Source: Sinohyriopsis cumingii (Eukaryota; Mollusca; Bivalvia; Unionida; Unionidae). From it: 64,000 nt of DNA. The translations under genes were made by a program, and so were the position numbers. Under the pieces are notes generated by a model. That model saw only the letters and a list, made by a program, of their open reading frames with translations, ran no database searches and was not told where the DNA came from. The stretch covers positions 186,001 through 250,000 of the forward strand of contig JAPYKE020000281.1 of assembly GCA_028554795.2 (NCBI GenBank), given 5' to 3'. Below, in pieces: positions 14,300 through 34,757 of this stretch (its first letter is position 1; each line of letters begins with the position of its first letter).

Positions 14300-14579
14300 A
14301 GTAGTAAAGGGGGCCACTCTACGGACAATGGGAATTAGCATTAAAAACACCCCTGGGCCACTTTACGGACAATGGAAATTTAACATGGCGAAAAATCGTG
14401 GGCCACTTTACGGACAAGGGAATTTAACATGGCAATAAATCGTGGGCCACTCTACGGACAAGGGGAATTTAACATGGGATTTTTTTTTTTTTAAAAATTT
14501 TTTTTAAAAAAGGGGTAGGCAATGGAAAGGCTATCTCTTTTCGAGAAATATGGGTGGCCCTGAAAAGGGCCTTTGGTTT
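14300..14579 (+). repeat. Polinton left terminal inverted repeat
   Basis: It matches the reverse complement of 34479-34757 almost base for base, apart from A/T homopolymer lengths and one change in the stem-loop flank. It contains four tandem units of about 45 bp starting at 14311, 14355, 14400 and 14444, each beginning GGGCCACTYTACGGACAA. An A/T-homopolymer palindrome follows (14480-14511), then an inverted histone-type stem-loop (14556-14571). Confidence 0.96.
14531..14571 (-). terminator. Histone-type mRNA 3' stem-loop with downstream element, minus strand (in left TIR)
   Basis: Read on the minus strand: AAAGGCCCTTTTCAGGGCCACCC. The 6-bp stem GGCCCT/AGGGCC (14556-14571) with TTTC loop and ACCCA flank matches the metazoan replication-dependent histone 3' stem-loop consensus at every constrained position. 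It is followed by TCGAAAAGAGATAG (about 14531-14544). The AAAAGAG of that element is complementary to the CUCUUUU core known at the 5' end of U7 snRNA. The element lies about 23 nt past the stop of the minus-strand gene at 14594-14824. Confidence 0.85.
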
Positions 14580-14593
14580 ATGTTAATATGCCC

Positions 14594-14824
14594 TTAGCAT
14601 AAAGGGCATTTGCGACATCTTCTTTTCCTCAAACTTCGTCTTACAGCAGGGCCATACATCAGAGTCCTCTTGAGGCAACCTTGTCTCTCTATATAGACTC
14701 TTCTTATCCACAGGCTGCTGTTGGTCCTGTGGACAACGGTCCACTTGGATCGGACATACATGAGCATGTCCGTCCTGAACATCATTGTTGACACAAGGGT
14801 TGAAGATTCAACGTCGGTCCACAT
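14594..14824 (-). CDS. Small basic protein of unknown function (76 aa), leftmost Polinton gene
   Basis: I do not recognise this gene. The predicted protein is basic, with a C-terminal Arg/Lys/Cys cluster (RRSLRKRRCRKCPLC). Support for a real gene comes from context. A TATA box (TATAAATAAA on the minus strand, 14867-14876) lies about 45 bp before the ATG. The other two minus-strand frames close quickly. A histone-type stem-loop with downstream element follows the stop. It diverges from the coiled-coil gene at 15044. The Arg/Cys-rich tail could bind nucleic acid, but that is a guess. Confidence 0.6.
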   Translation of the reverse strand: MWTDVESSTLVSTMMFRTDMLMYVRSKWTVVHRTNSSLWIRRVYIERQGCLKRTLMYGPAVRRSLRKRRCRKCPLC

Positions 14825-15043
14825 GTTGAGGCTCCGAGAATAGGTGAATCAATGCAGTGAACTGCGTTTATTTATAGGGACAGAAAGGATTGAAACGGAT
14901 TGAGTTCATTCACCAATCCGAACACGCGTTACAGAATTCAGTCAGCCCACATCCAATCCGAAGAGAGCAGTCTGTGACGTCACGTAGTCAATATAGATTC
15001 GCTAGCGCTTGTGTGCAGTCAATCTATGCGACAGTGATTCAAC
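14825..15043. promoter_or_regulatory. Divergent promoter region with CRE palindrome and CAATCC boxes
   Basis: This 219-bp region separates the leftward 76-aa gene and the rightward 189-aa gene. On the minus strand a TATA box lies at 14867-14876. A perfect palindromic TGACGTCA (CRE/ATF site) lies at 14975-14982. CAATCCG/CGGATTG motifs occur two in each orientation (14887-14892, 14897-14902, 14914-14920, 14954-14960). For the plus-strand gene a weaker AATATAGA lies at about 14989. Confidence 0.6.
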
Positions 15044-15613
15044 ATGACGGAAACTCAGAAAACGATCCAGTGGGGTGCACCAGCAGGGGAGACCGCCCAA
15101 GGGAACCCGGACTTACTTTCAGAAGAGGTGAATTGGGATTTTGTGGATTTTCTCTCCTCGCAAGAATTTGTTCCGGAACCTTCGTTACCTTCTTCATTAC
15201 CGCAAGTGGAGAATTTTAGACAGAGACAAAAAGAAGAATTGGAGAAATTTATACAACGACAAAAGGAAGCGGAACAGGCTTTTCTCCTACAGCAACAGCA
15301 ACAAGAAGAAGAGGTAAGAAAAAAACAACAGCAAGAAGAAGTAGCAGCAAAGAAACAAGAGGGTGAAAATCAAACGGTCACGGTACTGTTGGACATTTTA
15401 GCGGAGTTAAGAAGTCTGAAACAAATGTATCAGACTTCTTTATCACGACCGAAGAGAATACGACCTTCCCGAGCTAAACACGTCAACCCTGTGACTAAGC
15501 CTACCGTACCACCCTTAGTGATTTCAACCCAATCATTATCATCATCATTACGCAGTCCAGAAGTAGGCCTTGGCCGTGGCAAAGGCTTAAGGCAGTTAAA
15601 ATTGATTGCTTAA
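15044..15613 (+). CDS. Glu/Gln/Lys-rich coiled-coil protein (189 aa), unknown function
   Basis: No recognised family. The acidic N-terminal 50 residues are followed by a long charged helix rich in Gln, Glu and Lys (about residues 55-115) that should form a coiled coil. A basic, Ser/Pro-rich tail contains RPKRIRPSRAKH. The ATG is at 15044. The stop is followed 27 nt later by a perfect histone-type stem-loop. Its composition and its 3' signal link it to the three right-end coiled-coil genes (32506, 33353, 34093), suggesting one functional class. The gene is intact. Confidence 0.75.
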   Translation: MTETQKTIQWGAPAGETAQGNPDLLSEEVNWDFVDFLSSQEFVPEPSLPSSLPQVENFRQRQKEELEKFIQRQKEAEQAFLLQQQQQEEEVRKKQQQEEVAAKKQEGENQTVTVLLDILAELRSLKQMYQTSLSRPKRIRPSRAKHVNPVTKPTVPPLVISTQSLSSSLRSPEVGLGRGKGLRQLKLIA

Positions 15614-15637
15614 ACTCACTCCTACACCATAAAGAAA

Positions 15638-15681
15638 AAAGGCCCTTTTCAGGGCCACCCACATTTCTCGAAAAGAAATAC
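15638..15681 (+). terminator. Histone-type 3' stem-loop and downstream element after the 15044 gene
   Basis: Stem-loop GGCCCTTTTCAGGGCC at 15641-15656, preceded by AAAA and followed by ACCCA. The purine-rich TCGAAAAGAAATA lies at 15668-15680. It matches the histone mRNA 3' consensus (two G-C pairs at the base, three Y-R pairs, a U-A top pair, a 4-nt U-rich loop). There is no AATAAA directly before it. Confidence 0.85.
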
Positions 15682-15915
15682 AATTTCAATTTGCCAATAA
15701 CTCAAAAAAAAATAAAAATAACTCACCCATTTTACCCTTGTAGTACGTGTCTGTGTATGAGTGCGTGAGTGTAGCTTCTTATTTTAAAATCAAAACTCAA
15801 AGACTCTTACCTTATATCATTCATTTATTCTTTTCTCCATTTTTTACAATCCAATTCACAATTCACATCACAACACTTTAATCAAAAGTTCATTGATTTC
15901 TTCTTTTCTCCTTGT
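15682..15915. other. Intergenic region between convergent genes
   Basis: AT-rich spacer between the stem-loop of the rightward gene and the stop of the leftward zinc-knuckle gene. On the minus strand an AATAAA lies at about 15823-15829, a plausible poly(A) signal for the zinc-knuckle gene. That gene shows no stem-loop. Confidence 0.5.
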
Positions 15916-16386: not shown

Positions 16387-16439
16387 CGTTGTGCTCGGCT
16401 TGAGAGTGAAATGAATAGTGAAAGGACAAGACACACACC

Positions 16440-16473
16440 CTTTTATATACGCTGGTCTGCTATGACTATAAAG
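16440..16473. promoter_or_regulatory. Back-to-back TATA boxes for zinc-knuckle and polymerase genes
   Basis: The minus-strand TATATAAAAG at 16440-16449 lies about 55 bp before the zinc-knuckle ATG. The plus-strand TATAAAG at 16467-16473 lies 48 bp before the polymerase ATG. The two boxes are about 20 bp apart. Confidence 0.7.
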
Positions 16474-16520
16474 TAGTTTATGGTGTTTGAACTTAAGTCA
16501 TTTGACTTTTTGCTTTCAAG

Positions 16521-19500
16521 ATGAAACGATCCCATTCATTCGAGAAGAAAGAAGAAAGTAAAAGGCAGAAACGTGATTTATCGCCTCGTACCAGGGCTGA
16601 AATCTTGGCACAAATTCATGCCAGTGATTTTGAAGAGGACATGAGTGAACCAGAATCCGAACCCTCTAAACCAAGTTCACCACCGTTAGTCAACCCTGAA
16701 AAGTACTATTCCATTCGAGAGACGGAAAAGCGCTCCTCTAGAAAATTTAGAACCACGGCTTACAAATACACGGTGAAGTTTAAAGATTTCAAGGCTGAAG
16801 TGCCGTTAGAGAAAGCAGAAGTGTTCATCACCGAGGTGTGGGATTCTTTGCTCACCTCACTCAAGCGACAATGTCAACCCAAAGAAGACGATCGCTTGAG
16901 ACTTTCCATACAACACGACGGTTTGAAATCCCCTGTTTGGATCGAGTTTAGCACCCCTGCAGAATTGACTGCTTCCAAAGTCATGGACAAGATTCAACAC
17001 GTACAACAATCTAATGATCAGTTTGACATCACCGATGGTAAAGCCACACTTGACATGACCCACGTCTCTCCTCCTCAAGGGACAGGACGCAAAAAGATGT
17101 TATTGGTGGACGACCTTCGCAACACCAAAAAGAGTCTCGTTCGAATTAACAACCCTCATGACCAGATGTGTTTAGCCCGTGCCATCGTGGTGGGACGAAC
17201 CTATGCCAACAAGAACGACACGGTAGAATGGAAAAGAACCTGGGACACTATTCAACGTTCCGACCGAGCCAAACAACGAAACGAAGCAGAACTCCTGTTA
17301 CAACAAGCCGGATTGCCCAAAGACACACCCTGTGGCATTCCCGAGATGCAAAAATTGCAAGATGTCCTAGCTCCACGCTACACCTTGAAAGTGCACCCTC
17401 AAGAAATGCGCGGGCCTCTATTGTTTCGAGGCCAAGACTTTAAGGACGGAAAATACATTCACCTTTATCATCACGATGACCATTTCGATACCATTACCAG
17501 TATCACTGGATTCCTGGTATACAGATATTACTGTGAGAAATGTGACCATGGTTATAATAATCGAGAGCAACACAAACATTGTGGATGGAAATGCTCAGGA
17601 TGTTTGGCCTCTTCACCCTGTGTGAGCGAAGAACCAGTGCCTTGTTCCACTTGTCTGCGCACGTTTGTCAGCCCTACCTGTTACCAACAACATCTGAAAA
17701 CGCAAGGTTCACAGAAGAAATGCGCTTGTCAACTGCTGAGATTGTGCTCTACGTGTGAACAAGTCATACGTACCAATAATACCAATGCACACGTATGTTC
17801 AGGAAAGAAAAAATGTCACATTTGTCACCACATCGTGGACTTGGAACACCAATATTACGTGCAAAAATACCAACCCCCACCAGAGAAAGAGGACGGTCAC
17901 AAGAAGAAAGGCAATTTCATCTTTTTCGATTTCGAATGCATGCAAGAAACCGGCATTCACATTCCTAATTTCTGCGTGGCTCATCGAGCGTGCGAGAAGT
18001 GCATTCAAGAACCTATCTTCAGTCATTGCCCTCACTGCAGCAAGATTCCCGGAGGGCGTGAAAAAATCTTTCGGGGACCAAACACGTTAGCCGATTTTGC
18101 CCAATGGGTCTTAGACCCCGTCGACAAGACATGGAGCCAAGAGGACATCGAACGTTACCGAGATTGTCATCGCCATGCCACAGTGATGGCTCACAATTTC
18201 TCCGGATACGATGGACAGTTTCTTCTCAGATACTATACGGAACAAGGCACCGAGTGTCCTAAAGTGACTTTGAACGGAGCCAAAATCATTTTCATGCAAG
18301 TGGGACAAGTACAGTTTAAAGATTCGATGAGCTATTTGGCCATGCCTTTGAGTCGAATGCCTAAAACGTTTGGAATGACAGAAATGGCTAAAGGGTACTT
18401 TCCACACTTTTTCAATACGGAAGCCAATCAACACGTCGTTCTACCCCATTTACCAGAGGCTCACTATTACGACCCCGACAACATGCGTACCGAACAACGA
18501 GAAGCTTTCTACGCTTGGTACCAGATTCACGCCTCGGACCCTTTCGACTTTCAGGAAGAAATGCTAAAGTATTGTCGTTCCGACGTGGACATTTTACGGC
18601 GTTGCTGTGGAAAATTTCGAGAACTGTTCATGGAACACGGAGGGGTCGATCCTTTGAAAGAAGCTTGCACCATTGCCAAAGCGTGTTCCTTAGTGTATCG
18701 ACAACGATTCATGCCTGAAAAGACCGTGGCTGTCATCAGTCCTCAAACGACCCACTTTGTCAAACGTCAATACTCGGTCAAAGCCCTACGCTGGTTACAT
18801 TACTTGTGCGACAAGGAAGACAAGTGGATTCAGCATGCCCGCAACGGAGGAGGCGAAAAGACCATCGGAACGTATTCGGTCGATGGCTGGGACTTAGAAA
18901 ACCCCAAGATCGTGTACGAGTTTAACGGTTGCTTATTTCACGGATGTCCCGTCTGTTACCCTGACCGTGGCACTAAAAATCAGTTTTTGCAACGAACCAT
19001 GGAAGACTTGTACCAGGACACTTGTCAGCGACGCCTAAAGTTAGAACAGCAAGGATACCAAGTGGTGGAAATGTGGGAACACGAGTACGATCACCGTATG
19101 AAAACCGATCCCGAGTTTAAACGCCTCGTGGAAAGTTACCAGTTCATGGACACGCTGAACCCGAGGGATAGTTTGTACGGAGGAAGGACCAATGCCACCT
19201 GTTTGCTGTACCAAGCCGACGAAGAGAAAGGAGAAGAAATCAAATACTTGGACGTGTGTTCGCTGTATCCCTACGTGTGCAAATATTGTCGCTTTCCTGT
19301 AGGGCACCCGCAATTGCTGACGGAACACATCGACCTGAAAAACATTCGACAATACGAAGGCTTGATCAAGTGTAAAGTTTTGCCTCCCACGAACCTATAC
19401 CATCCCGTCTTACCTCACCATTGTCAAGGCAAACTGATGTTTCCCTTGTGCCGTACTTGTGCCGAAACGTGCAACCAAGACCAACCTTGCCATCACAGCC

Positions 19501-20555
19501 AGGAAGAACGGGCCTTGACGGGAACCTGGGTCAGCGTAGAATTGTTCAAAGCTCTGGACATGGGATACCAACTGTTAGAAGTGTACGAAATTTGCCACTT
19601 TCCCAAGACACAACAATACCGCAAGGGTGACCCCACGCAGAAAGGCATTTTCGCCGACTACGTGGATGCCTTTTTGAAACTGAAGCAAGAAGCCAGCGGC
19701 TATCCTTCCTGGTGTCACACTCCCGAAGACCAAATACAATTCAAAGAGAAATACTACGAACAAGAAGGCATCACTTTAGACCACATCGAGAAAAACGAAG
19801 GCAGGCGATCGTTTGCCAAAGTGATGTTAAATTGCTTGTGGGGTAAAATGGCACAACGACCGTGTTTACCCAAGACGGAATATTTGACAGAACCTTCCCG
19901 CTACTTCCAGATGATTCACGACAAAACCAAATACATGAAACACGTGGACGTCGTTCGAGAGAATTTGATCTTGGTCAATTACGAAGAAGATCTGGACTTT
20001 GTACAAGACGACCCTTTTGGAAATGTCATCATTGCGGCTTACGTGACAGCCCATGCTCGCTTAAAATTGTACGAAGCTTTAGAACTGTTAGAAGAACGCG
20101 TCCTGTACTTTGACACGGACAGTTGCATTTACATCCATCACCCGATTCAACATCACCCTAACATCGAAGGAGACCGTTTAGGAGCCTGGACAGACGAGCA
20201 TCCCGACGACAAGATTCTAAGTTTTGTCAGTGGCGGTCCCAAAAATTACGGCTACGAATACCGGGACAAACAAGGAGAAGTGCACACGACGTGCAAAGTG
20301 AAAGGACTGACTCTGAATTATCGTACCAGTCGTGTGGTCAACTTTGGGGTATTGAAAGAAGCCTTGCAATCGAGAGAGGATGGAAACTTTAAAGTGACCA
20401 CTTACCAACCGAACAAGATTGTACGTTTACCCACTCACCACATCGTCAGTCGACCTTTGGAAAAAGTTTATCAAATCGTGTACCAGAAGCGAGTTCGACT
20501 TCCCAATCATTTCACCTTACCGTATGGACACGTTGGTATAAAACATTGGTTGTAA
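16521..20555 (+). CDS. PolB: Protein-primed family B DNA polymerase (pPolB)
   Basis: This 1344-aa protein should replicate the element by protein priming from the TIR ends. The 3'-5' exonuclease motifs are intact: FDFECM (D470/E472), HNFSGYDGQF and YCRSDVDIL. The polymerase motifs are also present: DVCSLYPYV (motif A, near 910), KVMLNCLWGK (motif B, near 1100), YFDTDSCIY (motif C, near 1197) and KVKGLTLN. A Cys/His-rich region (about 334-450) precedes the exonuclease domain. A segment with EFNGCLFHGCPVCY and VEMWEHEYD lies between the exonuclease and motif A, as in other Polinton polymerases. The N-terminal 100 residues are charged and less conserved. No frameshift or stop is seen. Confidence 0.97.
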   Translation: MKRSHSFEKKEESKRQKRDLSPRTRAEILAQIHASDFEEDMSEPESEPSKPSSPPLVNPEKYYSIRETEKRSSRKFRTTAYKYTVKFKDFKAEVPLEKAEVFITEVWDSLLTSLKRQCQPKEDDRLRLSIQHDGLKSPVWIEFSTPAELTASKVMDKIQHVQQSNDQFDITDGKATLDMTHVSPPQGTGRKKMLLVDDLRNTKKSLVRINNPHDQMCLARAIVVGRTYANKNDTVEWKRTWDTIQRSDRAKQRNEAELLLQQAGLPKDTPCGIPEMQKLQDVLAPRYTLKVHPQEMRGPLLFRGQDFKDGKYIHLYHHDDHFDTITSITGFLVYRYYCEKCDHGYNNREQHKHCGWKCSGCLASSPCVSEEPVPCSTCLRTFVSPTCYQQHLKTQGSQKKCACQLLRLCSTCEQVIRTNNTNAHVCSGKKKCHICHHIVDLEHQYYVQKYQPPPEKEDGHKKKGNFIFFDFECMQETGIHIPNFCVAHRACEKCIQEPIFSHCPHCSKIPGGREKIFRGPNTLADFAQWVLDPVDKTWSQEDIERYRDCHRHATVMAHNFSGYDGQFLLRYYTEQGTECPKVTLNGAKIIFMQVGQVQFKDSMSYLAMPLSRMPKTFGMTEMAKGYFPHFFNTEANQHVVLPHLPEAHYYDPDNMRTEQREAFYAWYQIHASDPFDFQEEMLKYCRSDVDILRRCCGKFRELFMEHGGVDPLKEACTIAKACSLVYRQRFMPEKTVAVISPQTTHFVKRQYSVKALRWLHYLCDKEDKWIQHARNGGGEKTIGTYSVDGWDLENPKIVYEFNGCLFHGCPVCYPDRGTKNQFLQRTMEDLYQDTCQRRLKLEQQGYQVVEMWEHEYDHRMKTDPEFKRLVESYQFMDTLNPRDSLYGGRTNATCLLYQADEEKGEEIKYLDVCSLYPYVCKYCRFPVGHPQLLTEHIDLKNIRQYEGLIKCKVLPPTNLYHPVLPHHCQGKLMFPLCRTCAETCNQDQPCHHSQEERALTGTWVSVELFKALDMGYQLLEVYEICHFPKTQQYRKGDPTQKGIFADYVDAFLKLKQEASGYPSWCHTPEDQIQFKEKYYEQEGITLDHIEKNEGRRSFAKVMLNCLWGKMAQRPCLPKTEYLTEPSRYFQMIHDKTKYMKHVDVVRENLILVNYEEDLDFVQDDPFGNVIIAAYVTAHARLKLYEALELLEERVLYFDTDSCIYIHHPIQHHPNIEGDRLGAWTDEHPDDKILSFVSGGPKNYGYEYRDKQGEVHTTCKVKGLTLNYRTSRVVNFGVLKEALQSREDGNFKVTTYQPNKIVRLPTHHIVSRPLEKVYQIVYQKRVRLPNHFTLPYGHVGIKHWL

Positions 20556-20578: not shown

Positions 20579-21037
20579 ATGACTTCGCCACAGCAAGAAT
20601 CAAGTGAGAAACCCGATGAGAACTCCAAGTTCAAACCCTACCATTTTCAAGTCTTCTTACCTGACTATTGTGATTGTGCCCGTCGATTGGACACGTTTCA
20701 GAAATGGCCTACGGATAGGGAAGGATTACCTTCTTCGCATGTTTTAGCTAGAACAGGATTTGTCTACTTGGGACCTGAGTCAGGATTGGGATACGAGGTA
20801 CAGTGTTTCGCTTGCGGACTGAAGTTACGAATGGATCTATGTATCTATAAAGATTCAGCTATTCTGGAACATACTCGATGGTCTCCGCACTGCCCTTACC
20901 TTTCTATGGCCTTTCCACCCATTACACTACGGTACAATGTTGACGGTACCTTAGAGACGGTACCTTCCGAAACAAGACATAAAAAACGTAAAAAAGGAAA
21001 GATGTACAAACTGGAGACTGCATTGCGACTAGTATAA
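20579..21037 (+). CDS. Single-BIR (IAP-like) protein 1, 152 aa
   Basis: A BIR domain spans about residues 23-105. It has the zinc-binding pattern CFACG...H-x6-C (EHTRWSPHC) and a typical YCDCARRLDTF start. In known inhibitor-of-apoptosis proteins BIR domains bind caspases or IAP-binding motifs. No RING, CARD or UBA is present, so this is a minimal viral-type BIR protein. A TATA box (20537-20543) lies inside the polymerase 3' end, 36 bp before the ATG. The stop codon is part of the next gene's TATA box. A Lys-rich tail follows the BIR. It is paired with a second BIR gene, so a host-derived anti-apoptotic role is likely (inference). Confidence 0.88.
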   Translation: MTSPQQESSEKPDENSKFKPYHFQVFLPDYCDCARRLDTFQKWPTDREGLPSSHVLARTGFVYLGPESGLGYEVQCFACGLKLRMDLCIYKDSAILEHTRWSPHCPYLSMAFPPITLRYNVDGTLETVPSETRHKKRKKGKMYKLETALRLV

Positions 21038-21096: not shown

Positions 21097-21840
21097 ATGA
21101 ATACTTTGAAAGAGACATCGTTCCAGTTTGGGGATTGTAAAAAAGCTGTATCTTTCTCTAGTGTGACTAATACTGGATGGATAAGACCCAGACATTGCGA
21201 CGGAAAATGTCCGGAAGGAAACTGCGATTGTCCATGTGGTTACCATTGTAATTGCGTAACGGAGTTTGCAGACAAGTGCGATTGTGAGCCTTGCGATGGG
21301 ACCGATGCTGTACCTTGTGACCTGAGCGATGCCGTAAAGCATCATGGGAACTTTAGTGCCCCTACCCCTGTCATGGAAAGTGATGCTGTGCGTGTCAAAC
21401 CTGTGGGATGCGAAAGCGATGCTGCTCGTCCTCTTGGACATTTTACTGGGTTTCGTTTTAAAGGGGAATGTCGACCTTCACGTTTACCTCCCTACGGATG
21501 TCATCCAGCCCTGAGCAAACTCCTACCCATTTCACTCAACCCTCATCGAAACGAACCTGTGAAAAACGAATATTCGTTTCCTGTGCGTTTGTCAGAATAC
21601 TGCGACTTTGAAAATCGTCTTCAATCGTTCAAAGGAAAATGGCCAAAGTATCTGGGAGGACCGACCCCCGAAGAATTAGCCAGAGCCGGATTTTTCTACT
21701 TGGGCGAAGGAGATAAAGTCAAGTGCTTCAGTTGCGGTGTGTCACTTCACCACTGGGAACCGCAAGATTCGGCCTTCGTTGAACATGCTCGATGGTCACC
21801 GAATTGTCATTACTTACCCTTAGTGGGACCGAGACATTGA
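21097..21840 (+). CDS. BIR (IAP-like) protein 2 with Cys-rich N-terminus, 247 aa
   Basis: The C-terminal BIR domain (about 165-240) has YCDFENRL, CFSCGVSL and VEHARWSPNC. It resembles BIR 1 next door in the EHxRWSPxC segment, so the two probably arose by duplication or were captured together. The N-terminal part carries a dense Cys cluster (CDGKCPEGNCDCPCGYHC, about 33-66) of unknown fold, followed by several SDAV/SDAA repeats. There is no RING. The tandem pair is not part of the canonical Polinton set. Related BIR genes are known in host genomes and large DNA viruses. Confidence 0.87.
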   Translation: MNTLKETSFQFGDCKKAVSFSSVTNTGWIRPRHCDGKCPEGNCDCPCGYHCNCVTEFADKCDCEPCDGTDAVPCDLSDAVKHHGNFSAPTPVMESDAVRVKPVGCESDAARPLGHFTGFRFKGECRPSRLPPYGCHPALSKLLPISLNPHRNEPVKNEYSFPVRLSEYCDFENRLQSFKGKWPKYLGGPTPEELARAGFFYLGEGDKVKCFSCGVSLHHWEPQDSAFVEHARWSPNCHYLPLVGPRH

Positions 21841-21868
21841 AGTAACTTCTTACCATAATCATCTGTTC

Positions 21869-22324
21869 ATGGATACTTTACAAGAGAACATTCGTGCTTT
21901 GCCTGTGGAGTTGAGAGAACGCATTTACCGAGAGCTGGTCAAAATACAAGTGAAACGTAAAGAACAATTGCATCCGTTACGTCACCGGTGTTTGAACCAC
22001 TGGTACCTGAAGGCTATACAAGGACTGATTCAATTGAAAGTGTTCCATTGGACAGACATTGATCAACGACCTCCTGGTTATAAAAAGGAATGGTTTGGTA
22101 TTGACGATTCTATCTACTACATTGTAAACGTACTGCATCGAATTCCAGAGGAAGAGTTAACGAATTACCAACATCTTAAACACAATGTCAACTTGGTGAA
22201 AGAGGAAACTTCTGAACGAATTGTAATGTGTAGATTAGTGACTCAACGATTTAAATTCGACACTGAAGTGAAACCATGTTTGTGCAAAGAGTACATTTCT
22301 TGTGTCAGACCAAAGAGGATTTAG
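21869..22324 (+). CDS. F-box-like protein, paralogue A (151 aa)
   Basis: The N-terminal segment (ALPVELRERIYREL) resembles the start of an F-box (LPxEL...I), but the match is short and I would not name it. The first 35 or so codons are almost identical at DNA level to those of the next gene, while the remainder has diverged strongly. It starts 28 nt after the BIR 2 stop. The rest of the protein is rich in basic and aromatic residues and not recognised. Confidence 0.65.
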   Translation: MDTLQENIRALPVELRERIYRELVKIQVKRKEQLHPLRHRCLNHWYLKAIQGLIQLKVFHWTDIDQRPPGYKKEWFGIDDSIYYIVNVLHRIPEEELTNYQHLKHNVNLVKEETSERIVMCRLVTQRFKFDTEVKPCLCKEYISCVRPKRI

Positions 22325-22336
22325 TATGACCTATTC

Positions 22337-23648: not shown

Positions 23649-24407
23649 ATGGCTACCTCTGCTGTCTCTGCTCCCTCTTCCTCCACTGTCAAAGTCATCG
23701 ACGAACACTTAGATCGTGCCAGTTGGGAGGCTTTGTATCTTCGCCATCCCTTTAACATGCTCATTGCTGGACCTAGCGGTTCAGGCAAAACCGAATTCGT
23801 CAAACGTTTGATCGAACATAAACATCATTTGATCGATCGGCCCCCTCAACGGATCGTGTGGTGTTACAAAGAGTGGCAATCGGCGTACAGCCTCTTGCGA
23901 GAAAGTCAAGGCGATTCCATCGTGTTTGTGGAAGGCATTCCTAAAGAAGACGATGGCATCGTCTCTGACTCCCGTCTAACCCATTTGGTCATTTTCGACG
24001 ACATGTTAGGAGAAGACGAAGAAGAAATTAAATTGTGGTTCACGCGCAAAGGGCATCACCGTAATGCCAGTGTCGTTTACATCACTCAAAATTTGTTTCA
24101 ACAAAGTAAAGCCCATCGCACCATCAGTCTCAATGCGCATTACGTGGTCTTGTTTAAAAGCCCTCGAGATAAATCGCAAGTGCAAGTCTTAGCCAAACAG
24201 TTAGGAACGCCTTGGCTGACTCAGGCGTACGACGATGCCACTCAAACTCCACACGCCTATTTACTCGTCGATTTGAAACCTACGACCCCCGAGGATTTGC
24301 GATTTCGTACCCACTTGTTTCACCACTGGTGCCAAGACGGAGGGCCTGTCCTGTACACGTCTCCGTCCTCGACTTCATTTCACTCCTCCCATGAAAAAAA
24401 TCTATAA
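23649..24407 (+). CDS. ATP: FtsK/HerA (A32-like) genome-packaging ATPase
   Basis: This 252-aa P-loop ATPase has Walker A GPSGSGKT (residues 41-48) and Walker B HLVIFDDML (D117/D118). A sensor-like ITQN and the downstream HYVVLFKSPRD are conserved in Polinton and NCLDV packaging ATPases. By homology it pumps the genome into the capsid. The ATG at 23649 (accATGG) is chosen because the upstream extension has only non-ATG starts and the TATA box fits. The stop TAA (24405-24407) lies within the next gene's TATAAAAA (24403-24410). Confidence 0.95.
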   Translation: MATSAVSAPSSSTVKVIDEHLDRASWEALYLRHPFNMLIAGPSGSGKTEFVKRLIEHKHHLIDRPPQRIVWCYKEWQSAYSLLRESQGDSIVFVEGIPKEDDGIVSDSRLTHLVIFDDMLGEDEEEIKLWFTRKGHHRNASVVYITQNLFQQSKAHRTISLNAHYVVLFKSPRDKSQVQVLAKQLGTPWLTQAYDDATQTPHAYLLVDLKPTTPEDLRFRTHLFHHWCQDGGPVLYTSPSSTSFHSSHEKNL

Positions 24408-26883: not shown

Positions 26884-27996
26884 ATGGAAAAAGTCTTAGC
26901 CAGCATTTACTACGATCCCTCGCATCCTGCAGGTTACGCAGGAATTCAAAAATTGTATCGTGCTGCCAAAACGCGACTGAAAAGTCTCCGTTTACCTCAA
27001 GTGCAACGATGGTTACAAGAACAAGCTACCTACACTTTGCACAAACCCATTCGACGCAAGTTTGCCAGAAGTCGCACCCGAGTGGAAGGCATCGATCATC
27101 AATGGCAAGCCGATTTAGCCGATGTCTCTCATTTGGCCAGCTACAATCGTGGTTACAAATATTTGTTTTGTGTCATCGACGTCTTTTCCAAATTTGCCTG
27201 GGTCGTGCCCTTGACTTCCAAATCCAGCAGCGAGTTAGTGCGAGCCCTGCAACGGGTGTTGAAACAAAGCGGTCGTCGCCCTCTTCGATGGCAAACGGAC
27301 AAAGGCACCGAATTTCTGAACCAAGCTTTCCAAAAAGAATTAAAGAAACGTGACATTCATTTTTTTACCACCGAGAATCCCGAAACCAAAGCCAGCATCG
27401 TGGAACGTTTTCAACGCACTTTGAAAGAACGCATGTGGAAATATTTTACGCATCACCACACTCTGAAGTACATCGACATCTTACCACACCTGGTGCAAGC
27501 GTACAACCAATCTTACCATCGAAGCATCGGACGTGCCCCGCAAGACGTGACTCCCGACAACGAAGTGCTGGTGTTTGAGCGCCTGTTCGGTACGTCCCCG
27601 ACGAGGGCTGTCCCCAAGAAAAGTGGAGAGTTGACCGTAGGAGATTGGGTGCGCATTGGCAAAACCAAACGCACTTTCGACAAAGGTTACTTACCTAACT
27701 GGACGACCGAATTGTTTCGCGTCACTGGACGAGTACATGGCCGTCATCCTGCCGTCTATAAATTGGAAGACATGAACGGAGAAGTACTCAAAGGAACGTT
27801 TTATTTGCCCGAGTTACAACGTGTCACCAAAAAAGAAGACGACGTGTACGACATCGAAAGCATTCTCGAACGCAGAACCCGTAAAGTGGGCAAACGACGT
27901 GTCAAAGAAGTCAAAGTACGTTGGAAAGGATATCCACCCAGTTTCGATTCTTGGATCGACGCTTCGCAAGTCATCGACTATAAAAAGAAGAAGTGA
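26884..27996 (+). CDS. INT: Retroviral-type (RVE) integrase with C-terminal chromodomain
   Basis: This 370-aa enzyme inserts the element and creates the 6-bp duplication. The DDE triad is visible as D77 (WQADLADV), D139 (WQTDKGTEF) and E174 (ASIVERFQRTL), giving the D,D35E spacing. A C-terminal chromodomain (about 320-370: VYDIESILERR, VRWKGYPPSFDSWIDASQV) probably targets chromatin, as in other Polintons. A canonical HHCC zinc finger is not evident in the N-terminal 70 residues. No frameshift or stop interrupts it. The ATG at 26884 is preceded by AATAAAAAA. Confidence 0.97.
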   Translation: MEKVLASIYYDPSHPAGYAGIQKLYRAAKTRLKSLRLPQVQRWLQEQATYTLHKPIRRKFARSRTRVEGIDHQWQADLADVSHLASYNRGYKYLFCVIDVFSKFAWVVPLTSKSSSELVRALQRVLKQSGRRPLRWQTDKGTEFLNQAFQKELKKRDIHFFTTENPETKASIVERFQRTLKERMWKYFTHHHTLKYIDILPHLVQAYNQSYHRSIGRAPQDVTPDNEVLVFERLFGTSPTRAVPKKSGELTVGDWVRIGKTKRTFDKGYLPNWTTELFRVTGRVHGRHPAVYKLEDMNGEVLKGTFYLPELQRVTKKEDDVYDIESILERRTRKVGKRRVKEVKVRWKGYPPSFDSWIDASQVIDYKKKK

Positions 27997-29796: not shown

Positions 29797-31113
29797 ATGA
29801 TGCACCGAGAGTCTTGCGCCTGTTCCAAGACGGAACTGGATCTGTTTGCCATGCCCCCCACCATGATGACGATGCAAGAATCCCAATGGGTGGAATTTCT
29901 TCCTATCTCCTCTTTGACCGATTCCGCTCCCATCGAGTTTGAAATCAAAGGACAACCCGAAGATTACATCGATCTGAATAGCAGTTACCTGTACTTGAAA
30001 GTCAAAGTAACCGAAGCGAACAACGATGCCATAGACAATGCTGATGCAGTAGCTCCCGTCAACAATTTCATGCATTCCTTGTTCAACGAAGTAGACTTGT
30101 ACTTGAATAACAAACTGGTCAGCAGCAGCATGGATACTTACCCTTATCGAGCGTACCTGGAAAATCTCTTGACGTATGGAATAAACGCCAAGAATACTCA
30201 TCTGGATGCTTGCGTGGTATGGAGACCTGACCCAGCAACTAAGTTCAACGCTATTGTACTTGCTGCGGATGCTGCACATTCAAAGGGATTTGTAGAACGA
30301 CGAGCGAAAATTGCTGGAAGTCGTAGTTTAGAACTGATGGATCGCTTGCATTTGGACATGTGGTTGCAAGAAAAGTATTTGCTGAACGGGGTGGATGTCC
30401 GCCTGAGACTGAATCGCAGCAGTGCCGCTTTCCATTTGATGGCTGCTAATGATGCCACTTATAAAACCAAAATCCTAGAAGCCAGACTCTACGTGCGTCG
30501 TGTGGAAGTGTTACCTAAAGTAGGTAACGATATCAGTCAGACGTTGAGCAGAACGACGGCCAAGTATCCGATCCGACGCGTGGAAGTGAAAACGTTCACC
30601 ATTCCTGCTGGACATCAATCCATGATCCAAGATCATCTGTTCCAAGGACAGTTACCCAAACGTTTGATTGTTGGTTTAGTGAAGAATTCAGCCTTCAACG
30701 GAGCCTACCACGAAAATCCTTTTGAGTTTCAACATTACAAAGTGTCCAAGATTGAAGTCAGTCGCGACGGCAAGACCTTGTGTACCCGGCCTTTAGAACC
30801 TAAATTTGGTGACGGGAATTATTTGAGGTCGTACTTGTCCCTGTACGAAGCTACCGGACAGTTAGGAACCAACACCAGTCACGGCATTACGTACGAAGAT
30901 TATGCAGGAGGCTACGCTTTGTGGGCTTTCGATTTCACTCCAGACCAAGGCAGCGACGAGGGACATTTCCACCCTATAAAATCAGGCCAGATTCGTGTGG
31001 AACTTCAGTTTGCACATCCAGCTCCAGATCACACAGTGAACGTCATCCTGTATGCAGAATTTGACAATACCATAGAAATCAACAGTTTGAGAGAAGTCAT
31101 TCTAGATTACTAG
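29797..31113 (+). CDS. MCP: Major capsid protein (double jelly roll)
   Basis: The 438-aa protein has the Polinton MCP hallmarks: QWVEFLPISSLTDSAPIEFEIKG, DYIDLNSSYLYLKVKV, APVNNFMHSLFNEVDLYLN, and DTYPYRAYLENLLTYG. It also has a second-jelly-roll end with QIRVELQFAHPAPDHTVNVILYAEFD. By family it forms the hexon-like trimers of the icosahedral shell. It starts at the first of two adjacent ATGs (29797). The length is near the lower end for the family, but both halves look complete and no stop interrupts it. Confidence 0.95.
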   Translation: MMHRESCACSKTELDLFAMPPTMMTMQESQWVEFLPISSLTDSAPIEFEIKGQPEDYIDLNSSYLYLKVKVTEANNDAIDNADAVAPVNNFMHSLFNEVDLYLNNKLVSSSMDTYPYRAYLENLLTYGINAKNTHLDACVVWRPDPATKFNAIVLAADAAHSKGFVERRAKIAGSRSLELMDRLHLDMWLQEKYLLNGVDVRLRLNRSSAAFHLMAANDATYKTKILEARLYVRRVEVLPKVGNDISQTLSRTTAKYPIRRVEVKTFTIPAGHQSMIQDHLFQGQLPKRLIVGLVKNSAFNGAYHENPFEFQHYKVSKIEVSRDGKTLCTRPLEPKFGDGNYLRSYLSLYEATGQLGTNTSHGITYEDYAGGYALWAFDFTPDQGSDEGHFHPIKSGQIRVELQFAHPAPDHTVNVILYAEFDNTIEINSLREVILDY

Positions 31114-31118
31114 AAGTC

Positions 31119-31601: not shown

Positions 31602-31623
31602 AGAAGAAAACAAACACAAAACA

Positions 31624-32184
31624 ATGGATACCTGGGAACTTTATTACCTTTTGAACCACAGTTCGTATACGTCTTCTTGGAATCCTGTCGTCTGTGCTAA
31701 AGATGAACTCCCTCATCGCAAACCTAAAGACCATCAAGCTTACGTGATCAACACGGACGACAGTCATCTCCCAGGAACCCACTGGGTAGCCGTCTACTTT
31801 CCTCAAGAAGGCTGTGTGGAATATTTCGATTCGTACGGATTGCCCCCTTTGGAGGACGATATCATCGACTTTATGAGAAGAAATGCTCAAACCACCCGAT
31901 TCAATAACGTGAAATTACAAGGCACAGATTCCTTGGTGTGTGGACAGTACTGTGTGTATTTTCTGCATCATCGCAGCCTGGGCTATTCCTTAGAACATTT
32001 AGTGACTCATTTCGATCCTCGTTCTTCTGCTAGAAACGATGTGAAAGTAGATCGATGGTTTTGTGACCATTATGCTTATCTTTTGTCTCAAGCTAGGAAA
32101 CGTAGTGTCCATCAATGGCCTAATGATTTCCAACAGTGGAAATCAAAATTTTATTCACAACGTTGTCAGCCTTGTTTAAAGTAG
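31624..32184 (+). CDS. PRO: Adenain/Ulp1-like cysteine protease
   Basis: The 186-aa protease has the C5/C48 triad order: H53 (GTHWVAV), D69 (EYFDSYG) and C106 (LVCGQYCVYF), with a Gln upstream (KLQGTDS) placed for the oxyanion hole. These match adenovirus protease and Ulp1. In Polintons it is expected to mature capsid and core proteins. Length is normal for the family and the gene is intact. The 3' flank is an AT-rich tract with AATAAA at about 32289, a plausible poly(A) signal. Confidence 0.95.
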   Translation: MDTWELYYLLNHSSYTSSWNPVVCAKDELPHRKPKDHQAYVINTDDSHLPGTHWVAVYFPQEGCVEYFDSYGLPPLEDDIIDFMRRNAQTTRFNNVKLQGTDSLVCGQYCVYFLHHRSLGYSLEHLVTHFDPRSSARNDVKVDRWFCDHYAYLLSQARKRSVHQWPNDFQQWKSKFYSQRCQPCLK

Positions 32185-32414: not shown

Positions 32415-32444
32415 GGGGATGTTTTCCTTCACGTCCGCGCTTTC
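32415..32444 (+). promoter_or_regulatory. Right-end promoter block, copy 1
   Basis: The 30-bp block GGGGATGTTTTCCTTCACGT + CCGCGCTTTC occurs here, at 33263-33292, at 33936-33962 (truncated) and at 34005-34034, each upstream of one right-end coiled-coil gene. A degenerate TATA (CTTTAAGAA) follows, 50-60 bp before the ATG at 32506. Confidence 0.75.
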
Positions 32445-32505: not shown

Positions 32506-32871
32506 ATGTGCTCCAAACTAGCTAAGCTCAACGAAGCCTACGTGAATTTGCATAGGGTCAGACACAGTCTGATACCGAAGCCAGAAGAAATAGAGAATGT
32601 GAGAATGTTAAAAATCACTGAAGACCTGATAGAAGAGCTCTTCAGAGAAGAAATGAACAAGGAGAAAGAAGAATGGACAGAGAAGTACAGACTTCAGAGA
32701 CAGCAGCAACAGCAGCAACAACAACAACAGCAGCAGCAGCAACAACCTGAAGCTGACAGAGGCTTTGTCGATTGTCGTATCGACACCAAAGAATTCTTCT
32801 TCTCTTTCCGAAGAAGCAGACCTATTGCCAGAAAGTCTATCCTCAGAGGACATCGCATTCTTAGAAACTAA
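32506..32871 (+). CDS. Right-end coiled-coil protein 1 with polyGln tract (121 aa)
   Basis: The first ATG is at 32506. The helical N-terminus (KLAKLNEAYVNLHRVRHSL) resembles the starts of the two following genes in layout (LxKLxxLxxxLxxxR). An acidic/basic helix follows, then a run of about 17 glutamines encoded by mixed CAG/CAA, then a basic tail. It is flanked by the shared promoter block and followed 30 nt later by a histone-type stem-loop. Function unknown. The CAG/CAA tract may vary in length and could shift the downstream frame. Confidence 0.7.
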   Translation: MCSKLAKLNEAYVNLHRVRHSLIPKPEEIENVRMLKITEDLIEELFREEMNKEKEEWTEKYRLQRQQQQQQQQQQQQQQQPEADRGFVDCRIDTKEFFFSFRRSRPIARKSILRGHRILRN

Positions 32872-32898
32872 AAAAAGAATGCCATAGCAAAACAAAAA

Positions 32899-32941
32899 AA
32901 CAGCCCTTTTCAGGGCTACCCAATACTCTAGAAAAGAAATA
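32899..32941 (+). terminator. Histone-type 3' stem-loop and downstream element after gene 1
   Basis: AGCCCTTTTCAGGGCT at 32902-32917 keeps the six-pair stem and TTTC loop; the basal pair is A-T instead of G-C. A TACCCAA flank and CTAGAAAAGAAATAA (about 32928-32942) follow. An AATAAA lies further down at about 32982. Confidence 0.78.
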
Positions 32942-33262
32942 ACGATTGATTTGCCAATGTGTGTAGGTAGAGTAGTGTGAAAATAAACACTAACTCTTTC
33001 TTAAAAAATGTGAGGGTATGTGTTTGTGTGATTGTGTTTGTAAGTGATAAAGTAGGTTGGTGTGGATAGTAGATTAAAATGATGTTTGTTTTTTGGGCTG
33101 CTTGAGGTGTATATTTGGGGTTAGATTGGATTGCTTTGCGTATGTGGATAGTCAATTGAAGTGATGGGTAGCATAAAAAAGTGAGCGAGTGTTTCTTTTA
33201 GGTCCGCGCGTTGTTGTTGTTTTTTTGGTCATGATCTAGGTAAGATGAATTTTATGTTTTCA
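32942..33262. other. Spacer of the right-end tandem array
   Basis: GT-rich spacer. Its first 70 bp (atttgccaatgtgtgtaggtagag ... aaataaacactaactcttt) recur after the next gene at 33751-33805. A partial promoter block (ggtccgcgcg, about 33202) and the phrase 'ggtcatgatctaggtaagat' (33228-33247) recur at 33969-33988, so the spacers are duplicated together with the genes. Confidence 0.65.
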
Positions 33263-33302
33263 GGGGATGTTTTCCTTCACGTCCGCGCTTTCAGTATAAA
33301 TT
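33263..33302 (+). promoter_or_regulatory. Right-end promoter block, copy 2, with TATA box
   Basis: The block GGGGATG...CCGCGCTTTC (33263-33292) is followed at once by TATAAATT (33295-33302), 51 bp before the ATG at 33353. Confidence 0.8.
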
Positions 33303-33352
33303 GAAACTAGTTAGGCAGTCCAGCTACCCTTGTTGATTGATCAACACCAAAA

Positions 33353-33676
33353 ATGAACACGAGACTGGAGAAACTGTTGGAACTTCATGTGCATCTGGAA
33401 TATGCCAGGCGCATATTAAATGAACTGGCCGCTGAAGCCATTGTCGAGGAGGGAAGGATAAGAGAGGAGGAAAGAAGAAAAAAAGAAGAGGAGGAAAGAA
33501 GATATAAAGAAGAGGAGGAGGAAAAGGAGAGAAGAAAAAATTTCAGAATCCCAGAGAGTGAAAATTGGGATTCTGAAGCAACATATCCTGCCTCTGCTCT
33601 CTCCCCCCAAAAGGTAAAAAGTAACTGGGGGATAAGATGTGTATGTGGCGCCAGGCCTGGAAGGTGCCACCATTAA
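33353..33676 (+). CDS. Right-end coiled-coil protein 2 (107 aa)
   Basis: The N-terminus (NTRLEKLLELHVHLEYARRIL) matches gene 1 and gene 3 in heptad layout. Residues 35-62 are almost only Glu, Arg and Lys, forming a single charged helix. A short non-repetitive tail ends in CVCGARPGRCHH, which could be a small metal site or just drift. The gene lies between promoter copy 2 and a stem-loop 29 nt after the stop. No family is recognised. Confidence 0.7.
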   Translation: MNTRLEKLLELHVHLEYARRILNELAAEAIVEEGRIREEERRKKEEEERRYKEEEEEKERRKNFRIPESENWDSEATYPASALSPQKVKSNWGIRCVCGARPGRCHH

Positions 33677-33702
33677 CCAGGTGTCCATGAAGTTCCAAAC
33701 AA

Positions 33703-33744
33703 AACAGCCCTTTTCAGGGCTACCCAATACTCTAGAAAAGAAAT
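33703..33744 (+). terminator. Histone-type 3' stem-loop and downstream element after gene 2
   Basis: AGCCCTTTTCAGGGCT at 33706-33721 with TACCCAA flank and CTAGAAAAGAAATAA (33733-33747). It is identical to the copy after gene 1, so the two 3' regions share a recent origin. Confidence 0.78.
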
Positions 33745-34004
33745 AACGATCCATTTGCCAATGTATGTAGGTAGAGTAGTGTGAAAATAAACACTAACTC
33801 TTTATTAATAGTGGAAGTGTATGTGTTTGTGTGTTTGTAAGAGCTCAGGTATGTTTGTGTGAATAGTAGATTATGGGTTTCTTAGCAAATGTGGAGAGTA
33901 TAGTTAGGGTTATATTATATGAAATGAGAAAGTAGGGGGATGTTTTCCTTCACGTCCGCGCGATGTTTGGTCATCATCTAGGTAAGATCCATTTTATGTT
34001 TTAG
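33745..34004. other. Second spacer of the right-end array with truncated promoter block
   Basis: It repeats the spacer at 32942-33262 with some loss, and contains an extra promoter block (33936-33962) ending ...CCGCGCG rather than ...CCGCGCTTTC. That copy has no TATA box or gene directly behind it. Confidence 0.6.
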
Positions 34005-34044
34005 GGGGATGTTTTCCTTCACGTACGCGCTTTTCGTATAACAA
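34005..34044 (+). promoter_or_regulatory. Right-end promoter block, copy 3, with TATA-like box
   Basis: GGGGATGTTTTCCTTCACGT + ACGCGCTTTTC, with one C-to-A change, is followed by TATAACAA (34037-34044), 49 bp before the ATG at 34093. Confidence 0.75.
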
Positions 34045-34092
34045 CCCACAGTATTCGTCGTTCAAACCATTCTGCAAAGAATAAAAAAGAAG

Positions 34093-34470
34093 ATGGCGTC
34101 AAACCAAATGGACAAATTACAAACCTTGCAAGACGTTTTAGACAACTTAGGAATAATGGAACAGATGCTAATAAGACTGGTTGAAGACCATTATTCCTAT
34201 AGTCCCCATCGTGTAAAGATGGAAATTAACAATTTAAGGAAAGCAAAGGACAAGATTAGTGGTGTCATGAAAGAGATCAAGGAGGAGAAGGAGGATGAAG
34301 AGGAAAAGATAAGAATAAGAACATGGAACGAAAAAATTGAAAAAGAAGAGGAAAATGAGAAGAGGAAGAAAGAAGAGGAGGAAGAGAAGAAAGAAGAGAA
34401 GGAGAAAAAAAAGAAGAGAAAGAGTGTTGGAGATAAAATAAGAAGTTGGTGGAGGAAAAGAAGAAATTAG
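34093..34470 (+). CDS. Right-end coiled-coil protein 3 (125 aa)
   Basis: The N-terminus (NQMDKLQTLQDVLDNLGIMEQML) shares the spacing of genes 1 and 2 but little identity. Residues 55-112 are Glu/Lys-rich and end in a basic SVGDKIRSWWRKRRN tail. The stop is 16 nt before the right-TIR stem-loop, so its 3' end signal is supplied by the TIR. This is the rightmost gene. Function unknown; a nuclear or DNA-binding role is possible from the basic tail. Confidence 0.7.
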   Translation: MASNQMDKLQTLQDVLDNLGIMEQMLIRLVEDHYSYSPHRVKMEINNLRKAKDKISGVMKEIKEEKEDEEEKIRIRTWNEKIEKEEENEKRKKEEEEEKKEEKEKKKKRKSVGDKIRSWWRKRRN

Positions 34471-34478
34471 AAGAAGAA

Positions 34479-34757
34479 AACCCAAAGGCCCTTTTCAGGG
34501 CCAGCCATATTTCTCGAAAAGAGATAGCCTTTCCATTGCCTACCCCTTTTTTAAAAAAATTTTTTTTAAAAAAAAAATCCCATGTTAAATTCCCCTTGTC
34601 CGTAGAGTGGCCCACGATTTATTGCCATGTTAAATTCCCTTGTCCGTAAAGTGGCCCACGATTTTTCGCCATGTTAAATTTCCATTGTCCGTAAAGTGGC
34701 CCAGGGGTGTTTTTAATGCTAATTCCCATTGTCCGTAGAGTGGCCCCCTTTACTACT
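34479..34757 (-). repeat. Polinton right terminal inverted repeat
   Basis: Reverse complement of 14300-14579, identical over the outer 180 bp including four ~45-bp units. Differences are homopolymer lengths in the A/T palindrome and one base in the stem-loop flank (AGCCA here, ACCCA on the left). It ends ...AGTAGT on the opposite strand, i.e. CT-3' at 34757. Confidence 0.96.
34484..34527 (+). terminator. Histone-type 3' stem-loop and downstream element (in right TIR)
   Basis: GGCCCTTTTCAGGGCC at 34487-34502 preceded by CCAAA and followed by AGCCA, then TCTCGAAAAGAGATAG (34512-34527). It serves the gene at 34093-34470. Confidence 0.83.

Follow-up and report, generated by a model that had tools for sequence, protein, structure and literature searches.

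Accessory genes of a molluscan-type Polinton end in 3' stem-loops that match the stem-loops of host histone genes

Background

A Polinton very probably runs the non-core genes at both of its ends by means of the replication-dependent histone 3'-end pathway of its host. In a 64-kb window, that is, the whole stretch of DNA that was analysed, five short accessory genes are each followed by a histone-type stem-loop and a downstream element. A 2025 paper lists six RF00032 histone stem-loops in a set of 8,300 genomes of Polinton-like viruses and virophages (PMC12220804), and so the remark in an initial annotation of this DNA that no such report existed for Polintons needs a qualifier; the section of that paper which lists the six matches is silent on their positions, genes, downstream elements and function and on any comparison with the host.

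Genome architecture of the element

Judged by its sequence, the host-resident, mobile, virus-like element in the window is a Polinton (Polinton/Maverick) in a molluscan-type genome. Its terminal repeats and core genes are as follows.

14279..14579, no strand, left terminal inverted repeat, pairs with 34479-34779
34479..34779, no strand, right terminal inverted repeat, pairs with 14279-14579
16521..20555, plus strand, PolB, core gene, Pfam DNA_pol_B_2 (PF03175); stem-loop absent 3' of the gene
23649..24407, plus strand, packaging-ATPase-like gene, Pfam Pox_A32; stem-loop absent
26884..27996, plus strand, integrase, rve (PF00665) and chromo; stem-loop absent
29797..31113, plus strand, MCP, labelled from bivalve relatives named 'F54H12.2-like'; stem-loop absent

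The inverted repeats form a 302-nt match between both ends with 96% identity, and no exact 6-bp target-site duplication was seen at the element ends tried. The PF03175 match makes PolB a B-family DNA polymerase, putatively of the protein-primed type, and the ATPase-like gene is of the FtsK/A32 packaging type (PF04665, 31.7 bits, cut-off 22.8). The gene at 29797..31113 is one that we take from its relatives to be the MCP, a putative double jelly-roll major capsid protein, and a protease-like ORF (31624-32184, putatively adenain-type), which was without a match in the Pfam search, is labelled by eye. With animal Polinton/Maverick (adintovirus-like) elements the present one shares PolB, an rve integrase with a chromodomain, an A32-type ATPase, MCP relatives of the F54H12.2-like kind and terminal inverted repeats, but its accessory genes set it apart from them by histone-type 3' ends and by a promoter motif. 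IMG/VR held no relative of PolB, MCP or the accessory gene acc189, and INPHARED phages no relative of the MCP.

The accessory genes lie at the two ends.

14594..14824, minus strand, orfL76, short accessory gene of 76 aa, from the ORF list
15044..15613, plus strand, acc189, accessory gene of 189 aa, no Pfam match
32506..32871, plus strand, acc121, accessory gene, no Pfam match
33353..33676, plus strand, acc107, accessory gene, no Pfam match
34093..34470, plus strand, acc125, accessory gene, no Pfam match

Among 17 full-length ORF copies of orfL76 in fetched host loci, the window copy included, pN/pS is 0.22. The structure predicted for acc189, one long helix at residues 53-133 (mean pLDDT 68.5, pTM 0.26), gave no functional clue.

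Histone-type stem-loops in the window

Sites were scored with the Rfam model RF00032, for which the gathering score is 34 bits, and with R1, a model built solely from the five histone 3' ends of one host histone unit (L075).

14531..14576, minus strand, stem-loop and downstream element 3' of orfL76 (stem 14556-14571), RF00032 42.5 bits, R1 49.1 bits
15636..15680, plus strand, stem-loop and downstream element 3' of acc189 (stem 15641-15656), RF00032 41.2 bits, R1 52.5 bits
32897..32942, plus strand, stem-loop and downstream element 3' of acc121 (stem 32902-32917), RF00032 31.0 bits, R1 52.4 bits
33701..33746, plus strand, stem-loop and downstream element 3' of acc107 (stem 33706-33721), RF00032 31.0 bits, R1 52.4 bits
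34482..34527, plus strand, stem-loop and downstream element 3' of acc125, in the right terminal repeat (stem 34487-34502), RF00032 35.6 bits, R1 44.7 bits

The initial annotation had described five stems with a TTTC loop and mostly an ACCCA flank, each 16-30 nt after the stop of a short gene and none after a core gene, with a purine-rich GAAAAGA 12-18 nt downstream. All five stems were confirmed, to the nucleotide. The loop is TTTC in 5/5 sites, the 3' flank is ACCCA in 4/5 (AGCCA at 34503 in the fifth), GAAAAGA stands exactly 13 nt past the stem in every one, and the stop-to-stem gaps, taken from the ORF ends, are 16, 22, 27, 29 and 30 nt; PolB, ATPase, integrase and MCP are all without a stem-loop. 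The CCCTTTTCAGGG core was absent within 160 nt of the stop in the other 18 of the 23 listed ORFs, and R1 at E<=1 found no sixth site in the window.

The claimed match to the metazoan histone 3' consensus held against RF00032 for three of the five sites, which score at or above gathering, but not for those of acc121 and acc107, which lie below it at 31.0 bits (E 2.5e-5); both of these reach 52.4 bits with the host-trained model. Because RF00032 E-values run from 1e-9 to 2.5e-5 (25-64 kb searched), the five sites are beyond chance. They represent at most three independent origins, since the 14571(-) and 34487(+) sites come with the terminal inverted repeat, one at each end, and the 32902 and 33706 sites lie within a 111-nt direct repeat, 95% identical, that is a tandem duplication. 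In its outer pair the stem has changed on both sides: the pair is G-C in one group of sites and A-U in the other.

Comparison with the histone genes of the host

The host unit L075 (H4, H2B, H2A, H1, H3) carries five RF00032 stem-loops of 35.0-39.4 bits, and GAAAAG follows the stem in 5/5 of its genes, at 13 nt in H4, H2B and H3 and at 14 nt in H2A and H1. The host has about 110 copies of H4, and stem-loops were present in the five H4 loci examined (L069-L072, L075). The initial annotation had proposed an alignment with the host's histone 3' ends; those of H1, H2A, H2B, H3 and H4 match the window sites, downstream element and spacing included. Run at E<=1 over 156,022 bases, R1 matched its five training sites and 5/5 window sites, the latter at 44.7-52.5 bits (E 1.3e-7 to 1.6e-9), and nothing else.

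The element thus shares with the metazoan replication-dependent histone mRNA 3' end (RF00032, SLBP/U7), and with the host cluster, a 6-bp stem, a 4-nt loop, G-C as the second pair, an A-rich 5' flank and GAAAAG 13 nt downstream. Unlike the host's sites, those of the element belong to mobile, non-histone genes, their 3' flank is ACCCA or AGCCA where most host histones have an ACA-type flank, and 2/5 have an outer A-U pair, unlike the histone 3' end. As far as their letters go, the stem-loop, the GAAAAG element and the spacing between them are those of the host histone genes.

In the host, U7 snRNA by RF00066 and SLBP by PF15247, exon by exon, gave no match, the control being silent in each search as well. 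The U7 pattern candidates C13 and C3 turned out to be the site of the element itself, decayed and read in the reverse direction, and 11 matches to a second U7 pattern lacked a U7-like hairpin by fold and by eye.

Recurrence in other copies and sequence constraint

Eight copies in the host genome were chosen by their MCP, and in 7/8 each accessory gene that could be recognised in the sampled stretch is followed by the stem-loop. These seven copies hold 19 stem-loop sites, 17 exact and 2 with one substitution, and in two copies with an 81%-identical MCP the sites are present 8/8 in the stretches taken. At acc107 the p-distance is 0.044 in the stem-loop and 0.017 in GAAAAGA, against 0.148 in the spacer and 0.188 farther downstream, with a pS of 0.49; the stem is nearly constant in genes with 41-49% synonymous-site difference. 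At the sites within the terminal repeats GAAAAGA varies more (p-distance 0.125 for orfL76 and 0.190 for acc125), a few copies lack it, and among 45 sites chosen otherwise than by RF00032 only 5/6 stem pairs form in five. We draw our conclusions from the p-distance and pS figures, as an ungapped conservation profile inflates the contrast between stem and flanks because of indels. A gapped profile gave a milder contrast and other conserved stretches, at acc107 60-80 nt past the stem and at acc189 120-160 nt past it, the latter higher than the acc189 downstream element. By these measures the 3' elements that recur after accessory genes are under constraint, above all the stem.

A whole-genome search with RF00032 scored 75 of 589,472 candidates, and its list is no census, because none of the 50 places fetched was a histone, for all that host H4 copies number about 110 and the five H4 loci examined have stem-loops.

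The expectation that the arrangement would be found in other Polintons was borne out among the host-genome copies but not in six mostly partial Polinton loci from other hosts (L001-L006, from bacterial or symbiont MAGs), in which RF00032 (E<=10 for five, E<=1 for L005) and R1 were unmatched and the promoter motif described below was absent at up to 4 mismatches. These are weak negatives, since L001 ends soon after a protease-like gene, L004 spans 3.6 kb, L002 comes in pieces, and L005 and L006 are distant (27-29% MCP). The 3' site was likewise absent from about 8 kb of an apparent second, distant Polinton in the same host. A 21-nt histone stem-loop pattern gave 0 matches and a shorter pattern four (L007-L010), which were judged to be chance. 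L007 failed a six-pair filter; L008, L009 and L010 passed it but are without a GAAAAG-type downstream sequence, L008 and L010 share one stretch, and RF00032 gives L009 24.8 bits (E 0.012), short of the gathering score. By eye, the ORFs beside these four matches resemble phage genes.

Promoter motif

Upstream of the right-hand accessory genes lies a further sequence in common with the histone genes of the host.

32416..32441, plus strand, histone-type promoter motif of acc121, matching the upstream regions of host H2B and H1 over 24-26 nt at 92-96% identity
33192..33212, plus strand, second promoter-motif variant, matching the upstream region of host H4 in 21/21 nt
33264..33289, plus strand, histone-type promoter motif of acc107
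33944..33961, plus strand, 18-nt promoter motif upstream of acc125, 0 mismatches
34013..34030, plus strand, 18-nt promoter motif upstream of acc125, 1 mismatch

At up to 3 mismatches the motif stands upstream of 24/24 copies of acc121, acc107 and acc125, of 0/38 copies of acc189 and orfL76, and of 0/15 copies of CCHC, PolB, MCP, PRO and mCP. It is absent upstream of host H2A and H3, and 'histone-type' here means common to three of the five host histone genes (H4, H2B, H1), not exclusive to them. Its BLAST E-value alone is weak (2.9e-4), low-complexity matches ranking better in the same list. That the element shares this motif with three host histone genes was unpredicted, and it points in the same direction as a histone-mimic reading.

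Discussion

A 3' signal shared by five genes, together with a histone-type promoter piece on three of them, suggests expression of these genes in the manner of histone genes. In such a pathway host SLBP would bind the accessory stem-loop and the U7 snRNP the downstream element, and the pre-mRNA would be cut a few nucleotides past the stem. The resulting mRNAs, without poly(A), would share the S-phase abundance and later decay of histone mRNAs, so that accessory proteins would be made during host-cell DNA replication, and the core genes (PolB, ATPase, integrase, MCP) would be kept off the pathway. The initial annotation's interpretation, that the element borrows SLBP/U7 processing for non-polyadenylated mRNAs made in S phase, is as a whole partly supported.

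The signal may be real and still be a minor or conditional end, most accessory mRNA being polyadenylated from a nearby AATAAA. This hexamer lies 70-80 nt from the stem start in acc189, acc121 and acc107, and therefore some polyadenylated transcripts are possible; neither AATAAA nor ATTAAA, however, occurs near the acc125 stem (250 nt scanned) or the orfL76 stop (160 nt scanned), and in host H4, too, an AATAAA follows the stem start, at 92 nt. We regard such dual 3' ends as unlikely. That the repeats serve as DNA sites for recombination, replication or packaging, with their histone likeness incidental, might be read from the placing of 2/5 copies inside the terminal repeats and 2/5 in a direct repeat. 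It is nevertheless very improbable, given that every window copy is oriented 5' to 3' with the preceding gene, that spacing and downstream element match those of host histones, and that there are internal copies at acc189, acc121 and acc107.

Extremely improbable, in our judgement, is a passive capture, in which pieces of host histone genes were acquired once and carried without function. The best local matches between the element and the histone unit are indeed the 3' elements, with the promoter motif also among them, yet the surroundings of the 50 fetched copies are without a histone match, the motifs sit at the correct ends of unrelated genes, and the stem and GAAAAGA of acc107 vary far less than synonymous sites. 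Hairpins also mark gene ends in mimivirus and in virophages, which are relatives of Polintons, and a virus-type 3'-end signal of this kind would account for a hairpin after stop codons; but here the sequence itself is kept and not just the hairpin, it fits the host histone model R1, and the core genes have no hairpin, and we give this explanation scarcely any credence.

Within the preferred reading, use of the histone 3'-end pathway, we incline to a further step, namely that the right-hand accessory genes are whole histone-gene mimics, in promoter as well as 3' end. They would then be a mobile virus's S-phase regulon, and their transcripts would be animal mRNAs, other than those of histones, that use SLBP/U7 by design. 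Perhaps these mRNAs are made in cells of the germline or the early embryo, which are rich in histone mRNA.

If this is true, the Polinton would have a direct means to couple expression to host DNA replication, and its accessory transcripts would be expected to be missed in poly(A)-selected RNA libraries. A large mobile-element family with histone signals would also offer natural, diverged test cases for the requirements of SLBP and U7.

Polinton and 3' stem-loop sites

Window 14279-34779 is a Polinton whose Pfam content comprises PolB (PF03175), an rve integrase with a chromodomain, an A32-type ATPase, two BIR genes and a CCHC gene. The MCP-labelled protein has 994 relatives at E<=0.001, and among the 120 listed the named animal ones are 'F54H12.2-like' (Mercenaria, Crassostrea, Ostrea, Saccostrea); mCP and PRO are labels given by position and eye. 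From PolB to PRO, intergenic gaps are 5-85 nt in 12 of 16 cases and 159-418 nt in the other four, and the right-hand accessory genes are spaced off by 321-481 nt. The BIR genes (inhibitor-of-apoptosis type; 20579-21037 and 21097-21840) lie in the core block directly 3' of PolB, and tandem-duplicate genes without assigned function (21858-22066 and 22326-22534) show 89% identity across the initial 209 nt of each. The short accessory genes are orfL76 (left, minus strand), acc189 (left, plus strand) and acc121, acc107 and acc125 (right, plus strand); the last four had no match in Pfam, and the predicted structure of acc189 is a single long helix. Elsewhere in the window, minus-strand open frames resemble, by eye, a reverse transcriptase of the non-LTR type (10708-12000) and a seven-helix receptor (461 aa, 59509-60894).

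Five 3' stem-loop sites, all at the positions reported in the initial annotation, were scored against the Rfam histone 3' stem-loop model, RF00032 (gathering score 34):

14531-14576, minus strand: 42.5 bits, above gathering score (cmscan)
15636-15680, plus strand: 41.2 bits, above gathering score (cmscan)
32897-32942, plus strand: 31.0 bits, E 2.5e-5, below gathering score (cmscan)
33701-33746, plus strand: 31.0 bits, E 2.5e-5, below gathering score (cmscan)
34482-34527, plus strand: 35.6 bits, above gathering score (cmscan)

Thus three of the five pass the Rfam cut-off and two do not. The described architecture is otherwise borne out, with a 6-bp stem and TTTC loop at every site, the flank ACCCA at four and AGCCA at one, and GAAAAGA, put 12-18 nt downstream in the initial annotation, exactly 13 nt past the stem in all five. 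A stem-loop core within 160 nt of the stop was present at 5 of the 23 ORFs listed and absent at the other 18. The five sites are not independent of one another: the two outer ones are both copies of the terminal repeat (302 nt, 96%), and those at 32.9 and 33.7 kb lie within a 111-nt repeat of 95% identity.

Comparison with host histone genes

The host assembly (2.9 Gb, 1138 contigs) gave 114 matches to H4, mostly in units arrayed in tandem at intervals of about 8.3 kb, many on small contigs; the repeat contains H4, H2B, H2A, H1 and H3. The closest named relatives of H1, and of the MCP among the matches listed, are molluscan, so that the host is likely to be a mollusc and probably a bivalve. 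At L075, a host locus carrying one such unit, each of the five genes is followed by an RF00032 stem-loop (35.0-39.4 bits), and GAAAAG follows the stem by 13 nt (H4, H2B, H3) or 14 nt (H2A, H1). Histone mRNAs of the clam Lucina pectinata are described as having the usual palindrome, and purine-rich elements are noted for only some (PMC6210712).

The strongest single result of the analysis came from R1, a covariance model trained only on the five histone 3' ends of L075 and run over 156,022 bases (the window, L075, the host locus L079 and L001-L006, Polinton loci from other hosts). At E<=1 it recovered its five training sites and all five window sites (52.5, 52.4, 52.4, 49.1 and 44.7 bits), and no further site across those bases. 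Judged against the host's own histone ends, the two under the Rfam cut-off equal the rest. L001-L006 are fragments of Polintons that had been binned into bacterial MAGs, those of tubeworm and mussel symbionts among them.

Other copies in the host genome

The host RF00032 search scored 75 matches out of 589,472 candidates, all above the cut-off. At 49 of the 50 loci examined out of these 75, a sample thus selected by stem-loop, accessory or other proteins of the window's Polinton family were encoded nearby; the remaining locus (L055) had no protein match yet carried three sites of the same type, and no histone was found near the match at any of the 50. A second sample was selected by MCP (8 of 96 host MCP places), and here too the arrangement recurred: in seven of the eight copies a stem-loop stands behind each accessory gene that could be recognised within the stretch retrieved, giving 19 sites (acc121, 7; acc107, 8, one duplicated; acc125, 4), 17 exact and two with one substitution. 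In two of these seven (L066, L067), the remaining 0.9 kb contained no recognisable acc125 and no third site. In the eighth copy (L061/L079) acc121 is interrupted by an apparent distant Polinton (L079, about 1750-9801; 994-aa ORF, ATPase 25% and integrase 26% identity), with no histone-type site across the roughly 8 kb seen.

In-frame stops are absent from 92 of these 96 loci; the family is thus a large one in which MCP is mostly intact. Two copies with an 81%-identical MCP had 8 of 8 sites present in the stretches taken. Two mosaic copies (L073, L074, L076-L078), with MCP 81% identical to the window's, PRO 98% and acc189 97% in the one seen, point to recombination between sub-families.

Sequence constraint

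Of 68 full-length ORF copies from fetched host loci, 59 are followed by the stem-loop pattern no more than 80 nt past their stop; eight of the other nine have, by eye, a one-substitution stem-loop, and the ORF at L029 has none after its stop. Constraint was assessed on 45 sites that RF00032 had not itself selected, a set that includes the window's own and many in elements picked via a neighbouring site; three acc125 copies were excluded as too short, and L029 had no site. Substitutions were zero in 39, and all six pairs were formed in 40. At the outermost position the sites fall into two groups, one with G-C and one with A-T, both sides having changed with pairing kept.

Difference per position between copies
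acc107 (17 copies; pS 0.49, pN/pS 0.27, simple uncorrected count): stem-loop 0.044, GAAAAGA 0.017, spacer 0.148, beyond 0.188
orfL76 (pS 0.41): stem-loop 0.013, GAAAAGA 0.057, spacer 0.122, beyond 0.261

Once RF00032-picked sites are included, the GAAAAGA difference rises to 0.125 at orfL76 and 0.190 at acc125, because AAAAAGAG and similar variants replace it at some sites there; the downstream element is thus looser in the terminal repeats. Copies of acc189 are young (pS 0.07) and therefore less informative.

Promoter motif of the right-hand genes

Comparison of the whole element with the histone unit revealed a match beyond what the initial annotation had named, a repeated motif upstream of acc121, acc107 and acc125 (five sites at <=3 mismatches against 0.01 expected):

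32416-32441, 33192-33212, 33264-33289 and 33944-34030: promoter motif sites, common to the upstream regions of host H4, H2B and H1

The acc121/acc107 motif is 92-96% identical over 24-26 nt to sequence upstream of host H2B and H1, and the variant at 33192-33212 is identical over 21 nt to sequence upstream of H4, each match reaching only E 2.9e-4, with simple-repeat matches ranking higher in the same list. It was not found upstream of host H2A or H3. From motif start to ATG is 82-83 nt at acc121/acc107 and 80 (H4), 102 (H2B) and 100 nt (H1) in the histones. The motif precedes all 24 copies of acc121, acc107 and acc125 having 200 nt of upstream sequence, 0 of 38 copies of acc189/orfL76 and 0 of 15 copies of CCHC, PolB, MCP, PRO and mCP. 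The right-hand genes carry signals shared with host histone genes at both ends; on the left-hand genes these are confined to the 3' part. The promoter shared by orfL76 and acc189 (14890-15000) has, by eye, a CRE-like TGACGTCA site and several CCAAT/ATTGG boxes.

Discussion

The observation of five histone-type sites is confirmed, and their interpretation as histone-type 3' ends of the accessory genes is strongly supported at the sequence level. In animals the histone stem-loop is bound by SLBP and the downstream element by the U7 snRNP; the transcript is cleaved, which leaves mRNA without poly(A) (PMC5636114, PMC2781718). We think that the accessory pre-mRNAs would be processed by this route, like histone mRNAs, since the two share their signals, the spacing of these and the nucleus. 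SLBP and U7 binding, cleavage, lack of poly(A) and S-phase timing are accordingly predicted for them. An AATAAA lies 70-80 nt past the stem start at three accessory genes, which leaves room for a polyadenylated form of those mRNAs.

The initial annotation knew of no such report for Polintons. The occurrence of RF00032 in Polinton-like genomes is already in print, as six hits among 8,300 Polinton-like and virophage genomes, listed without discussion in the section that gives them (PMC12220804). By title and abstract start, no paper among the matches listed, from a search mostly outside subscription journals, concerns 3' ends of histone type in any mobile element, Polintons included; within the reach of these searches, the arrangement, the host match and the promoter are not in print. 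What is new would be the use made of a known pathway, and not the pathway itself.
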